DNA of 64,000 nt, from positions 682,001-746,000 of the forward strand of contig WLID01000001.1 of NCBI GenBank assembly GCA_009702325.1, in the 5' to 3' direction. This stretch comes from Actinomycetota bacterium. Its GTDB lineage: Bacteria; Actinomycetota; Thermoleophilia; Gaiellales; Gaiellaceae. Shown one piece after another: positions 3,090-42,352 of this stretch. The position numbers were made by a program, and so were the translations under genes. Within the stretch, counting starts at the first letter, position 1. Every line of letters begins with the position of its first letter. The notes under the pieces were generated by a model that searched no databases, had not been told where the DNA came from, and saw only the letters and a list, made by a program, of their open reading frames with translations.

Positions 3090-4475
3090 CTAGAGGGCCT
3101 TGACGGCGGAGACGAGCTTCAACACCGACGCCTTCGCGTCGCCGAAGAGCATCGCCGTGCCCGGCAGCACAAACAGCGGGTTATCGATGCCGGCGAAACC
3201 GGTTGCCATCGACCGCTTCATCACGATCGTCTGCGCAGCAGCGTCGACGTTCAAGATCGGCATGCCGTAGATCGGGCTGCCCGGATCGTTGCGCGCCGCA
3301 GGGTTGACGACGTCGTTCGCGCCAATCACGAGCACAACATCGGTCTGCGGGAACTCCGGGTTGATCTCGTCCATCTCCTTGAGGGCGTCGTACGGGACGT
3401 TCGCCTCAGCAAGGAGCACGTTCATGTGGCCCGGCATACGGCCGGCAACAGGATGGATCGCGTACTGAACGTTCACGTTCTTCTTCTCAAGCTCATCGGC
3501 GAGCTCGCGCACCGCGTGCTGCGCCTGCGCGACGGCCATGCCGTATCCCGGGACGATCACGACGTTCTGGGCGTACGCGAGCATGATCGCAACGTCCTCG
3601 GCGTTGACCGACCGCACGGTTCCTTCAACCGCGGCGGCACCAGCGCCAGCCTGCACCTGCCCGAACGCGCCGAATAGCACGTTGCCGATCGAGCGGTTCA
3701 TCGCCTTGCCCATCATCAGTGTGAGCAGCGTTCCCGAGGCACCAACGAGGGCGCCCGACACGATCAGGACGTTCGAGCCAAGCTCAAAACCGGTAGCCGA
3801 CGCTGCAAGGCCGGTGAAGGCATTGAGCAGCGAGATCACGACGGGCATGTCGGCGCCACCGATCGGCAGCACGAACAACACACCGAAGATCGAGGCGCCC
3901 ACAAGCACCACAACCATCAGCCACTGCGCCTCGGAACCAGCGATCATCGCGATTCCAGCAGCGAGCACACCTGCGATCAGCAGACCGTTCCCAAACTTCT
4001 GGCCCGGATACGTGATCGGCCGTCCGCCAATCAGCTCCTGCAGCTTCGCGAACGCGATCAGCGAACCGGCGAACGACACCGCGCCGATCAGCGCCGACGC
4101 GACAACCGCCACGATCACGTCGCCGTGCAGATGGCCGGGCTCCGGCGCCATGTTGTGGAACTCCGACAGCGACACGAGCGCCGCTGCACCACCGCCGACG
4201 CCGTTGAAGAGCGCCACCATCTGCGGCATCGCCGTCATCTTCACGCGGCGGGCACCAACAAGGCCGAACACCGAGCCGATCGCGGCACCAACCGGAATCC
4301 GCCAACCAATGTGCATCCCGGAGTGGGCGAGCGTGACCACGATCGCGATCGCCATACCGATCGCGCCAATCCAGTTACCGCGGCGCGCAGTCGTCGGAGA
4401 CGACAGGAAGCGCAACGCCAGGATGAAACAGATGATCGTGACGAGGTAGAAGAGGTTCGAGGTGGTCTGGCCCAT
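3090..4475 (-). CDS. pntB: Proton-translocating NAD(P) transhydrogenase subunit beta
   Basis: Membrane subunit (461 residues) of the transhydrogenase that couples hydride transfer between NADH and NADP+ to proton entry, supplying NADPH. About nine hydrophobic segments fill residues 1-260. The C-terminal NADP(H)-binding domain III shows VIVPGYGMAVAQAQ, HPVAGRMPGHMNVLLAEA and VLVIGANDVVNPAA, all hallmark segments. Length matches E. coli PntB. The start overlaps the pntA2 stop by one base, so the three subunit genes are translationally coupled. A split alpha subunit (pntA1 and pntA2) is the usual arrangement in alphaproteobacteria and many actinobacteria. Confidence 0.97.
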   Translation of the reverse strand: MGQTTSNLFYLVTIICFILALRFLSSPTTARRGNWIGAIGMAIAIVVTLAHSGMHIGWRIPVGAAIGSVFGLVGARRVKMTAMPQMVALFNGVGGGAAALVSLSEFHNMAPEPGHLHGDVIVAVVASALIGAVSFAGSLIAFAKLQELIGGRPITYPGQKFGNGLLIAGVLAAGIAMIAGSEAQWLMVVVLVGASIFGVLFVLPIGGADMPVVISLLNAFTGLAASATGFELGSNVLIVSGALVGASGTLLTLMMGKAMNRSIGNVLFGAFGQVQAGAGAAAVEGTVRSVNAEDVAIMLAYAQNVVIVPGYGMAVAQAQHAVRELADELEKKNVNVQYAIHPVAGRMPGHMNVLLAEANVPYDALKEMDEINPEFPQTDVVLVIGANDVVNPAARNDPGSPIYGMPILNVDAAAQTIVMKRSMATGFAGIDNPLFVLPGTAMLFGDAKASVLKLVSAVKAL

Positions 4476-15609: not shown

Positions 15610-16887
15610 TTATGCCGCGTCGGCTGGGCGCATCGGAAGTTCGAGTACGCCGCCTGTGGTTTCGACCAGCTCCGGCTGCTCATCGCCGACGAGTTCGGGT
15701 GCGACGAACGGGCGGGTGGAGTGGTCGAGAGCTTCAACGTCGGGTAGCGGGTCGGATCCTGCACCGTGCTCAGGGAACTTCCGTGCCGTGACAAGGACGC
15801 GCGACTCAAGCGAGCCGACAGCCTCGTTGTAGGCGCCCACAGCGGTGTCGAGCGACTTTCCGACCTTGGCGAAATGCTTTGCGAACACACCGACCCGCTC
15901 GTACAGCTCCCGGCCGCGCTGCGAGACCTCGCGGGCACTCGCCGCGACCGTCTCCTGCTGCCAGCCGTAGGCGACCGTTTTCAGGAGCGCGATCAGCGTG
16001 GTGGGGGACGCGAGGATGACGCCGGTTTCAGCACCGGCCTCGATCAACGTCTTGTCGTGGTCGACGGCTGCGCGGAAGAACGCCTCGTCGCCAAGGAACA
16101 TCACGACGAACTCGGGTGACTCATGCTGCTTCCAATACGCCTTCTGGCTGAGCTTCGAGACGTGGTCACGAACCTGCCGCGCGTGACGCTCGAGGTTGAC
16201 TCGGCGGGTCTCGTCGTCGGTCGCCTCGATCGCGTCGAGGTAGGCGTCGAGCGGCACCTTCGAGTCGATCACGATCTTCTTGCCGCCCGGAAGGCGGACG
16301 ATCATGTCGGGCCGCTGCAGCCGCCCGTCGGCGTCGCGTTCGCTTGCCTGCTGGTCGTAGTCGCAGTGCTCAACCATTCCGGCGAGCTCGACGACTCGCT
16401 GGAGCTGCATCTCGCCCCACCGGCCACGGACGTGCGGCGCGCGCAGCGCGGTAACGAGATTGCCCGTCTCGGAGCGAAGCTTCTGTTGCGTTTCGGCGAC
16501 CGCCTTGAGCTGCTCGCCGATCTGAGACACGGCGGCAATACGCTTCTCTTCGAGTGCCTTCGAGCTGACATCGAAACGCTCAAGCGTCTCTTTGATCGGC
16601 TTCAGCTTCATGTCGGTGCTCTCGAGCAGGCGTGCCGTGCTCTTGTCGAGCGCATCGCCAGTGAGGGCCTTCAGATGCTCTTCCCACTGCACCTGTGTCC
16701 GCTCAACGAGCGCGAGTTTTTCTGACGCCTGCGCGCGTTCCTGTGCGAGCAGCTGGTCGCGGTGGGCGACCTCCTGCTCGGCCTGCGCGATCACGCCGCG
16801 AAGACGCTGTGCTTCGGTGCGGGACCAGAGCCAGACCGCCAGCGCACCGGCAGCGGCAGCAACGAGAGCGATCACGGCCATCAACAT
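15610..16887 (-). CDS. rmuC: DNA recombination protein RmuC
   Basis: Protein of 425 residues. RmuC proteins are membrane-anchored, nuclease-like factors that limit recombination at inverted repeats. The first 20 residues form one membrane helix (MAVIALVAAAAGALAVWLW), followed by a coiled coil rich in Glu, Gln and Ala to about residue 110. The core shows RGRWGEMQLQRVVELAGM, VIDSKVPLDAYLDA, HVSKLSQKAYW and PEFVVMFLGDEAFF, all typical. The tail is acidic and variable. Start at 16887 (an alternative ATG is two codons later). The open frame further upstream runs through the hairpin region and is rejected as coding. trxB follows after 68 nt on the same strand. Confidence 0.95.
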   Translation of the reverse strand: MLMAVIALVAAAAGALAVWLWSRTEAQRLRGVIAQAEQEVAHRDQLLAQERAQASEKLALVERTQVQWEEHLKALTGDALDKSTARLLESTDMKLKPIKETLERFDVSSKALEEKRIAAVSQIGEQLKAVAETQQKLRSETGNLVTALRAPHVRGRWGEMQLQRVVELAGMVEHCDYDQQASERDADGRLQRPDMIVRLPGGKKIVIDSKVPLDAYLDAIEATDDETRRVNLERHARQVRDHVSKLSQKAYWKQHESPEFVVMFLGDEAFFRAAVDHDKTLIEAGAETGVILASPTTLIALLKTVAYGWQQETVAASAREVSQRGRELYERVGVFAKHFAKVGKSLDTAVGAYNEAVGSLESRVLVTARKFPEHGAGSDPLPDVEALDHSTRPFVAPELVGDEQPELVETTGGVLELPMRPADAA

Positions 16888-16954
16888 GGGAGGAGGACCG
16901 TATCGCGGCCGTCGGACGGAACACGTGTTCCGGTCGCATTCCCGTCGGACCAAC

Positions 16955-17037
16955 AAAAAAATCAGCCCCGGCGAGTCCGAAGACCTACCGGGGCTGAGTG
17001 CCGGATCCAACGAGTCCGAAGACCTACTGGATCCGAC
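16955..17037 (-). ncRNA. Candidate small RNA: two UUCG-capped hairpins with a terminator
   Basis: Two long hairpins lie in tandem. Each contains the same 17-nt core (17011-17027 and 16972-16988), folding on the minus strand to a C(UUCG)G tetraloop stem. The outer stems are unrelated in sequence but each fully complementary: 8 bp in the upstream hairpin (17028-17035 with 17002-17009), 9 bp in the downstream one (16989-16997 with 16962-16970). The downstream hairpin is followed by seven U residues (16961-16955), a textbook intrinsic terminator. G-U pairs close only on the minus strand, showing which strand is the RNA. A promoter directly precedes it. Alternatives: an attenuated leader of rmuC, whose ATG is 67 nt beyond the terminator. 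Confidence 0.65.
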
Positions 17038-17044
17038 AAGGGGC

Positions 17045-17073
17045 AATCTAGTGGCGTCTTCCGGCCTCGTCAA
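17045..17073 (-). promoter_or_regulatory. Sigma-70-like promoter for the two-hairpin RNA
   Basis: TTGACG (17073-17068) and TAGATT (17050-17045) are separated by exactly 17 nt. The predicted transcript start is near 17037, one or two bases before the first hairpin. Confidence 0.65.
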
Positions 17074-17182
17074 CGGCCTCCGGATTGAAAATGTCGCTAC
17101 GAGCGGACATTTCTCTTGAACGCGTTTGCGAACCACGAGATTTCCCGTCCGAAGAGGGCAGGAGGCCGACCGTGCCACACCG

Positions 17183-17197
17183 TACGCTCACTCCATG
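17183..17197 (+). promoter_or_regulatory. -10 hexamer giving a leaderless dinG-like mRNA
   Basis: TACGCT at 17183-17188 is followed by 6 nt and the ATG at 17195; no SD sequence. It fixes the start against a longer open frame. Confidence 0.65.
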
Positions 17198-19057
17198 CAC
17201 GACGCCTTCGGGCCCGGTGGGGCTCTCGCACGCACGCTTGCTGGTTTCGAGTCGCGCCCCGAACAGGCCGCGCTCGCCGACGCGGTCGCACGGTCGCTCA
17301 CGTCGGGTGAACACCTCGTCGCAGAGGCAGGCACCGGAACAGGGAAGAGCCTCGCCTATCTCATCCCATCGCTCGAGTCGGGAGAGCGCGTCGTTGTCGC
17401 CACCGCCACAAAGGCGCTCCAGACGCAGCTCCTTGAGTACGACGTACCCGCCGCCGCGCGAGCACTCGGCCGGAAAGTGAACGTCGAGATCCTCAAAGGC
17501 CGGGCGAACTACGTGTGTCGGCGCCAGCTGTCGACCTTCGGGCAGATGCTGCTGCGCGAGCCGCGAGACGAAGAGGCCTGGGAGGTCATTGAGCCCTGGC
17601 TCGAAGAGACGGTGACGGGAGATCGAGCGGAGCTGCCGATCGAGCCGTCCGAGTCGCTCTGGGCTGAGCTCGCCGTGGGATCCGATCGTTGCGTCGGTCG
17701 ACGATGCGCATTGCTCTCGTCGTGCTTCGCCGAGGCGGCTCGTCAGCGCGCCTCCGAGGCAGAGCTCGTGATTGCGAACCACGCCCTCTACTTCGCCGAC
17801 ATCGCGGCCGACGGCGGCGTCTTGCCAGAACACGGGGCGGTCGTGTTCGACGAGGCTCACCGGCTGGAAGAGACGGCAGCCACCTGGCTTGGTGGTCGTG
17901 TGTCGCGCCATGCGATTCGGCGTCTTACCCTCGACGTTGAGCGTGCGTGCCGCGACGAGAAGCAGCAGGTCCCGGCCCGTGTGCTCGATCGCGTCGAGCT
18001 TGCAACCGACCGCTTCCTCGCCGCGGTGACGCCCGCCACCGGGCGCCGCCGCCTGCGCGAGCCACCACTTGAGCTCGTACGCCCCCTCGTCGAGGCGCTT
18101 GCCGACCTGAACCACGCGCTCGCAGGTGATGGCGAAGGGTTCGAGACGCTCGGCCGTCGGTCGCTTGCGTTGGCGGCCACAGCCGAGGCGTGCCTCGATC
18201 CCGACACGGAGGGTCGCGTGGTGTGGTCGGAACCCGACTCGGTCGCCTGGGCGCCCGTCGACGTCGCCACCGAACTCCGCGATCGCCTGTGGCGCGAGGG
18301 GCCCACCGCAATCCTCGTCTCGGCAACGCTGACGACGGGCGAAGACGCGCGGTTTGTGCGGCGGCGCCTCGGGCTCGATCAAGCACGCGAGCTCGTTGTC
18401 GGTTCACCATTCGACTACCGCAGCCAGGCCCTGCTCTATCTGCCGCGAGGGATGCCTGATCCTCGTGCTGACGAGTTCGGCGCGAAGGTTGCCGAAGAGG
18501 TGCGGGCGCTCCTGCAGCTCTCGGAGGGGCGTGCGCTTGTCCTCACGTCGAGCTACCGCGCACTCGGCGAGCTGAAGGCGTCGCTCCAGGGGAACGTGCC
18601 CTATGAGGTGCTTGTTCAGGGAGAGGCGCCACGAGAGCGTCTCCTCGAACGGTTCCGCTCCGAGGTCTCGTCGGTGTTGCTTGCGACGTCGACGTTCTGG
18701 CAGGGCGTCGATATCCCCGGTGAGGCGCTCTCGTTGCTCGTCATCGACAAGCTGCCGTTTTCGGCCCCCGGTGACCCGCTCTATGAGGCGCGGTGCGAGG
18801 CGGTCTCGAAGGCCGGGGGCGATTGGTTCGCCGACTTTGCATTGCCGATGGCGATGCTCCAGCTGCGGCAGGGCTTTGGGCGTCTGATCCGCAGCCACTC
18901 CGACCGCGGCGTTGTAGCGATCCTCGATCCGCGGCTACGGACGAAGGCCTACGGCCGTGCGTTCCTCGCGGCACTGCCGCATGCGCCGATGGCGGAGGAT
19001 CGCGTTGCTGTCGCATCATTCTTCGGCACCTCCGCTGTGGCAGCGGCCGGGTTCTAG
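17195..19057 (+). CDS. DinG/XPD-like ATP-dependent DNA helicase
   Basis: Superfamily-2 helicase of 620 residues, 5'-3' polarity expected, acting on R-loops, forks or damaged DNA. Walker A is EAGTGTGKSLAYLIP near residue 50; ATATKALQTQL is motif Ia; VFDEAHRLEE is the DEAH box. Cysteines in NYVCRRQL, DRCVGRRC and SSCFAEAA match the iron-sulfur cluster insertion of DinG proteins. ANHALYFADIA follows, then motif VI QGFGRLIRSHSDRGVVAILD near the end. No exonuclease domain is attached. The start is fixed by the leaderless promoter. Confidence 0.93.
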   Translation: MHDAFGPGGALARTLAGFESRPEQAALADAVARSLTSGEHLVAEAGTGTGKSLAYLIPSLESGERVVVATATKALQTQLLEYDVPAAARALGRKVNVEILKGRANYVCRRQLSTFGQMLLREPRDEEAWEVIEPWLEETVTGDRAELPIEPSESLWAELAVGSDRCVGRRCALLSSCFAEAARQRASEAELVIANHALYFADIAADGGVLPEHGAVVFDEAHRLEETAATWLGGRVSRHAIRRLTLDVERACRDEKQQVPARVLDRVELATDRFLAAVTPATGRRRLREPPLELVRPLVEALADLNHALAGDGEGFETLGRRSLALAATAEACLDPDTEGRVVWSEPDSVAWAPVDVATELRDRLWREGPTAILVSATLTTGEDARFVRRRLGLDQARELVVGSPFDYRSQALLYLPRGMPDPRADEFGAKVAEEVRALLQLSEGRALVLTSSYRALGELKASLQGNVPYEVLVQGEAPRERLLERFRSEVSSVLLATSTFWQGVDIPGEALSLLVIDKLPFSAPGDPLYEARCEAVSKAGGDWFADFALPMAMLQLRQGFGRLIRSHSDRGVVAILDPRLRTKAYGRAFLAALPHAPMAEDRVAVASFFGTSAVAAAGF

Positions 19058-42147: not shown

Positions 42148-42213
42148 CGGCCCGGCGTTGCGAGGGCGCGCGAGGGACCGAGTGCGCTGCGCGGACGAAC
42201 GGCGCCGGAAAGC

Positions 42214-42249
42214 AGAAAACCCCGCGGCCAGAGGGCTCACGGGGTTCTC
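42214..42249 (-). terminator. Terminator of tRNA-Ser(GGA)
   Basis: On the minus strand AGAACCCCG pairs with CGGGGTTTTCT across a GC-rich loop, about 15 nt past the tRNA end, with a short U-run. Confidence 0.65.
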
Positions 42250-42263
42250 GGATCACGGTTGAG

Positions 42264-42352
42264 CGGAGAGAGAGGGATTTGAACCCTCGAAGCACCTTTC
42301 GGCACTTACGCGATTTCCAGTCGCGCTCCTTCGGCCACTCGGACACCTCTCC
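42264..42352 (-). tRNA. tRNA-Ser (anticodon GGA)
   Basis: Acceptor GGAGAGG pairs with TCTCTCC (one G-U), discriminator G. Anticodon arm CGCGA-CTGGAAA-TCGCG gives GGA. Long variable arm with GTGCCGAAAGGTGC. The 3' CCA is not encoded. Confidence 0.96.

Follow-up and report, generated by a model that had tools for sequence, protein, structure and literature searches.

The 83-nt double hairpin found between dinG and rmuC in the window (the whole 64,000-nucleotide stretch of DNA analysed here) is very probably a genuine small RNA gene in its own right, and comparison with related genomes indicates that it is very probably the tandem-duplicated form of a hairpin RNA carried by most sampled genomes of one taxonomic family of Thermoleophilia. 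I propose an autonomous RNA, driven by a sigma factor and terminated in a U-run, that would act in trans as a structured ligand, and estimate the probability of this reading at roughly 0.5. The gene boundaries, folding, conservation, paralogy and independence from rmuC are supported by sequence comparison, and the locus shows the features of an autonomous small RNA gene: a promoter of its own, a terminator of its own, and a conserved RNA structure. A free small RNA with these two signals was one of the options offered by the sequence-only reading, and the comparative evidence strongly supports it.

The RNA gene between dinG and rmuC

The gene is predicted on the minus strand at 16955..17038, from folding, BLAST within the genus and covariation, with its start at 17036-17038 and its end in a U-run. 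Hairpin 1 (16999..17038, minus strand) consists of a 12-bp outer stem, a region in which a U.G and a G.U wobble flank an A x C mismatch, a 4-bp apical stem and a UUCG loop. A 1-nt linker separates it from hairpin 2 (16962..16997, minus strand), the terminator hairpin, which was identified from the fold and is also matched by two of the models described below (67.3 bits for R2, 57.8 bits for R3); the U7 tract of the intrinsic terminator follows at 16955..16961 on the same strand. The two hairpins share a 17-nt core, GTAGGTCTTCGGACTCG, at 17011..17027 and 16972..16988 (both minus strand), and no third copy was found within three mismatches in the 64-kb window. The double-hairpin locus is single-copy in its own genome, so a dispersed repeat was rejected.

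Together with the U7 tract, the two hairpins fold at −53.3 kcal/mol (z = −6.0), and none of the shuffled sequences was equally stable. The opposite strand reaches only −39.8 kcal/mol and its apical stems are open, which bears out the earlier claim that the G-U pairs close on the minus strand only. The minus-strand promoter, the two hairpins, the identical core and the seven U residues were likewise all confirmed in the sequence. Two points required correction: the outer stems are fully paired as described, but the shared core is not, as it holds the two wobbles and the mismatch; and the first hairpin, thought to lie within two bases of the promoter, actually begins 6–8 nt after the −10 hexamer, where the +1 position is expected.

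According to the ORF list, rmuC lies downstream (15610..16887, minus strand, ATG at 16887), and dinG (17195..19057, plus strand, ATG at 17195) is divergent, in agreement with the view that nothing upstream on the minus strand is coding. An open frame does extend through the RNA and on into rmuC. A coding reading was rejected, since in the genus relatives examined this frame is lost and contains stops.

Conservation within the genus

An initial search for the pair-of-cores pattern retrieved three congeners. An 88-nt BLAST query then gave matches in 10 of 13 genomes of the genus (E ≤ 0.001), and in none of 48 other genomes. The RNA shares 87–99% identity with its counterparts in eight other species of the genus, where compensatory changes preserve the fold; for example, the apical stem of hairpin 1, GGUC-UUCG-GACU, becomes GCUC-UUCG-GAGU in four species. 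An alignment of nine genus sequences shows two-sided changes at four pairs, with 99.3% of cells paired. Within the genus, the outer-stem sequence is held more constant than base pairing alone would require. The promoter spacer and the flanks diverge among these relatives, and TTGAC and the −10 hexamer are largely retained.

One genome, G010, has a single imperfect hairpin (L139, 2635-2685), whose 5′ half derives from hairpin 1 and whose 3′ half derives from hairpin 2, with the promoter retained. This fusion is as expected for a deletion between the repeated cores and, as G010 has thereby reverted to one hairpin, it indicates that two hairpin copies are not essential. The proposal of two copies of a binding unit therefore holds for the layout of this genus only: elsewhere there is usually one hairpin, and in G010 a single one.

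A wider family of hairpin RNAs

A first model (R1), run over the 103 genomes of the taxonomic family, matched other genera, in which a single hairpin stands behind the same type of promoter. A second model (R2), built from 17 hairpins with a covariation of 0.554 versus 0.240 in shuffled alignments, matched 70 of the 103 genomes at E ≤ 0.01, and a third (R3), built from 65 sequences, reached the same count at E ≤ 0.001, with matches in 24 of 34 genera; R2 and R3 were partly trained on loci later found, and these within-family counts are thus not independent, the control being the near-absence of matches outside the family. A search of 399 genomes of the class matched only two extra-family genomes (G268 and G219), both weakly, and the G268 match follows an apparent tRNA gene, of which it is probably the terminator. 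A search of 396 genomes of the phylum matched five extra-family genomes, again weakly. Six of these seven weak matches (all except that in G219) were inspected, and all six lack the promoter at the required place. Within the family, genus g11 (6 genomes) gave no match, and neither did two congeners of the window genome; the RNA is thus not essential everywhere. Phages, plasmids and viral contigs were also searched and gave no match to the RNA, and a phage or plasmid origin was rejected on this basis. R3 has a second match in the window, at 42205-42254 on the minus strand (17 bits), directly after a tRNA at 42264-42352; it was rejected as a family member, being probably the terminator of that tRNA.

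In other genera, the usual form is one hairpin of ∼38 nt, homologous to hairpin 1 and followed by a U-tract (∼45 nt in total), and several paralogs are often present per genome. In an alignment of 68 members, two-sided changes occur at 13 of 17 pairs, and 94.5% of cells are paired. Double-change cells number 176, versus 53 ± 5.6 in shuffles, and none of 500 shuffles reached the observed value on any of five measures. A covariance search across related genomes had been the check proposed for the sequence-only reading, and the pairing is kept across the aligned members. The constant parts are 5′ CC and 3′ GG in the mid-stem and the U.G / R-C / G.U region. The outer stems covary freely between genera, with the 3′ strand, CGGGUUCG, varying less across the family than the strand it pairs with. 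The loop is mostly UUCG, but also CUCG, UACG and once GAAA, and appears to be a stable cap rather than a sequence that is read.

In G018, which has six matches at E ≤ 0.001, four loci (L082, L084, L091 and L128) carry near-identical hairpins despite diverged promoter spacers, which suggests that the hairpin sequence is held fixed between these paralogs. At L110 (G030), partial hairpin copies occur downstream of the main one, at 3267-3313 and 3397-3443, within near-identical repeats of ∼130 bp. The motif GGWCC is found 6–10 nt 3′ of the hairpin in 21 of 77 loci (e.g., L075, L078, L090 and L093), and anywhere in the 26 nt after the hairpin in 23 of 77, versus 6% of shuffles.

Promoter and predicted start

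The sigma-70-type promoter TTGACG-17-TAGATT (17045..17073, minus strand) is the sole promoter-like site found between 15.5 and 18.5 kb, where shuffles give 0.2, and its layout recurs at most of the family loci. By a strict test, 60 of 82 loci have a promoter at a fixed distance from the hairpin, compared with 0.3% of shuffled sequences and 0.2% of random positions, and in 57 of these 60 the gap from the −10 hexamer to the hairpin is 6–7 nt. Most of the other loci miss the test narrowly, having TTGCAT or a 19-nt spacer. Upstream of the family loci, information content peaks at the two hexamers only. This, and the fixed spacing, place the predicted transcription start at the first paired base.

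The same spacing makes it most improbable that these are ordinary intrinsic terminators of upstream genes with a promoter by chance. The hairpin and U-run do often lie 40–110 nt after a co-directional gene, and the weak matches in the phylum are plain terminators; but conservation between species far exceeds what a terminator needs, and at the dinG-rmuC site there is nothing to terminate, as the upstream gene is divergent.

An upstream palindrome

Further upstream lies a putative operator, GAAATGTCCGCTCGTAGCGACATTTTC (17087..17113, minus strand), with a CGC-N5-GCG core at 17095-17105, centred at about −62 from the predicted start. At 41 related loci, a palindrome of the form CGC-WMNKW-GCG followed by TTTT lies at −51 to −65 relative to the start; these loci are largely rmuC-linked members and members of the recR-lysC type (see below), and it is rare before the scattered copies referred to as B/D-type. 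This suggests that a transcription factor controls many copies of the RNA through this putative operator. The right flank of the palindrome is T-rich, and its centre is mostly near −53 in genus g41 and at −60 to −65 elsewhere, about one helical turn apart. The idea that the palindrome terminates the upstream gene was rejected, as its flanks are often non-complementary and the motif is also present where that gene is divergent.

The operator core at these 41 loci is identical to the core motif of ClgR, CGC-N5-GCG (PMC3613350). ClgR was considered as the factor and rejected: a near-match lies upstream of clpC, which is a standard ClgR target, in the window's own genome, but the clpC upstream regions of 30 relatives lack the motif. 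A 99-aa XRE protein considered as a ClgR candidate was also set aside, the resemblance being weak.

Genomic context and independence from rmuC

In 35 family loci, rmuC is found by tblastn downstream of the RNA, co-directional and syntenic, and a divergent DinG is found by tblastn at several loci. A second group of loci lies between recR and an aspartokinase gene (lysC), these names coming from reading the translations rather than from a family search. The B/D-type copies are scattered, and by a rough ORF caller 10 of 23 have an upstream gene on the same strand and a downstream gene that is convergent.

The second option of the sequence-only reading was an attenuator of rmuC, that is, a cis-acting leader controlling this gene. 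Synteny in 35 loci, as well as an alternative fold of the read-through transcript that opens hairpin 1, would be compatible with it. However, rmuC has a promoter-like element of its own, GTCCGAC-N8-TACGGT (16897..16917, minus strand), outside the RNA. A GTCCGAY-N8-TANNNT element, with the fuller family form GTCCGAY-N8-TASCGTT, stands shortly before the rmuC ATG in 32 of the 35 RNA-linked loci, versus 0.9% of shuffles, and lies 4–346 nt after the RNA. Other genes intervene between the RNA and rmuC in G003 and others, and paralogs are found before lysC and opposite convergent genes. Analysis of the sequence gave no sign that rmuC depends on a leader transcript, nor of an antiterminator that opens the terminator hairpin, as hairpin 2 stays intact in the read-through fold. 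The element and the intervening genes indicate that rmuC is transcribed separately from the RNA, and leave control by attenuation highly improbable.

The layout of the rmuC element, RecA-NDp/PafBC-like, matches that of the LexA-independent damage promoter of mycobacteria, tTGTCRgtg-8-TannnT (PMC5656591). Directly upstream of it is a palindrome, GGAACACGTGTTCC (16918-16931, minus strand), that resembles an SOS/LexA box; similar ones are found in G012 and G009.

The position of many copies between genes, often convergent ones, and the fusion of start and terminator within ∼45 bp, raise another explanation, namely a device at the DNA or transcription level, in which a promoter followed immediately by a terminator occupies polymerase or insulates the neighbouring genes, with the RNA as a by-product. 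The strongly conserved upper stem (the CC/GG pairs and the U.G / R-C / G.U region) would be needless for insulation, and so would paralogs such as L125 and L152, which are nearly identical although their promoters have diverged. I therefore consider such a device quite unlikely.

Comparison with known RNAs

A scan of the whole window with Rfam 15 at the gathering score identified tRNAs only, and the only matches in 19 family loci were tRNAs and a single cobalamin riboswitch, none of which overlaps the hairpin RNA. The riboswitch match, of the AdoCbl type and just above threshold, adjoins a B-type copy (L087, 2328-2471, minus strand). For two single-hairpin members, Rfam gave no match with a meaningful E-value. 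The best Rfam score, in a 201-nt search, was for ncS54 (RF02871, Burkholderia sRNA 54), at 29 bits and E = 5e-5; membership was rejected, as this is below the gathering score of 43. Like the window RNA, ncS54 is a tandem of two similarly sized hairpins, of which the second is a terminator with a U-tail, but it comes from another phylum, and the single-hairpin members of the new family gave no ncS54 score. The likeness is one of shape, not homology.

Short hairpins, sometimes repeated, are shared with several other known RNAs. The 6C RNA, like the hairpin RNA a short conserved RNA of actinobacteria, acts through C-rich loops and increases two-fold with mitomycin C in Corynebacterium, according to work cited in PMC6789036; as characterised there, it differs from the hairpin RNA, whose loops are stable UUCG, CUCG, UACG or GAAA tetraloops, and no 6C match appeared in the Rfam scans of the window and the 19 loci. 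The RNAs targeted by ANTAR proteins are, as in the window, dual stem-loops; they are read by a protein, have hexanucleotide loops with A1 and G4, and mostly lie within or beside the gene regulated (PMC8164766). The hairpin RNA, with UUCG-type tetraloops, its own promoter and mostly one hairpin, falls outside that definition. The Cuckoo/CcsR RNAs of Alphaproteobacteria are short, mutually homologous and often multi-copy, and have repeated hairpins, but their loops carry an anti-Shine-Dalgarno sequence, absent from the loops here. The put RNAs of phage HK022 fold into a pair of hairpins right at the 5′ end of a transcript and act on RNA polymerase, but to antiterminate that same transcript, whereas the hairpin RNA ends in its own terminator. 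As far as the literature searched reaches, no description of the hairpin RNA was found, and it appears to represent an undescribed small-RNA family with an unusually minimal gene.

Proposed mode of action

In the model proposed here, RNA polymerase with the housekeeping sigma factor would start at the base of hairpin 1, and transcription would stop in the U-run that follows hairpin 2, yielding a free RNA of ∼83 nt, nearly all double-stranded and UUCG-capped. I infer from the sequence that the RNA is transcribed, acts in trans and has a protein partner: its stem may be read by an RNA-binding protein or by RNA polymerase, for which the RNA would be a ligand, decoy or cofactor.

Most well-studied bacterial small RNAs base-pair with mRNAs, and a stand-alone antisense RNA acting in trans has to be weighed on that ground. 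The conservation of the outer stem within the genus, as well as the greater constancy of CGGGUUCG, speak for it; the frozen outer stem could fit base pairing after unwinding, which is the strongest counter-argument to the ligand model. But an unpaired seed is nearly absent, only the 1-nt linker, small mismatches and structured tetraloops being available, the loop swaps between stable tetraloop types, including GAAA, and the outer stems covary freely between genera. Scarce single-stranded RNA and loop swapping favour reading of the stem by a protein or polymerase, so that the RNA probably acts in trans as such a ligand, and antisense pairing appears unlikely.

A possible link to the damage response

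The genomic setting may hint at DNA damage: the RNA lies between dinG and rmuC, the latter with a PafBC-type (RecA-NDp-like) promoter element, and other copies are beside recR. The WYL domain of PafBC has an Sm/Hfq-like fold, and an RNA activator has been proposed for it (PMC6789036). It is a long shot that such a DNA-damage regulator, a PafBC-type WYL protein, has the hairpin RNA as its nucleic-acid ligand; if true, RNA levels would rise through a damage-responsive operator, and the RNA would then activate the WYL regulator, and with it rmuC and other repair genes. From the rmuC element, a Thermoleophilia version of the PafBC/RecA-NDp-type regulon may be mapped.

The RNA family is widespread and multi-copy in a largely uncultured lineage of Thermoleophilia. 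Its gene design is minimal, with transcription predicted to begin at the first base of the very hairpin that terminates it, and the duplication in the genus, together with the fused single-hairpin revertant G010, provides a natural experiment on copy number. No Hfq is known in Actinobacteria (PMC6789036), and an RNA that is all stem, with probable recognition by a protein, may therefore offer a handle on how small RNAs act in these bacteria.
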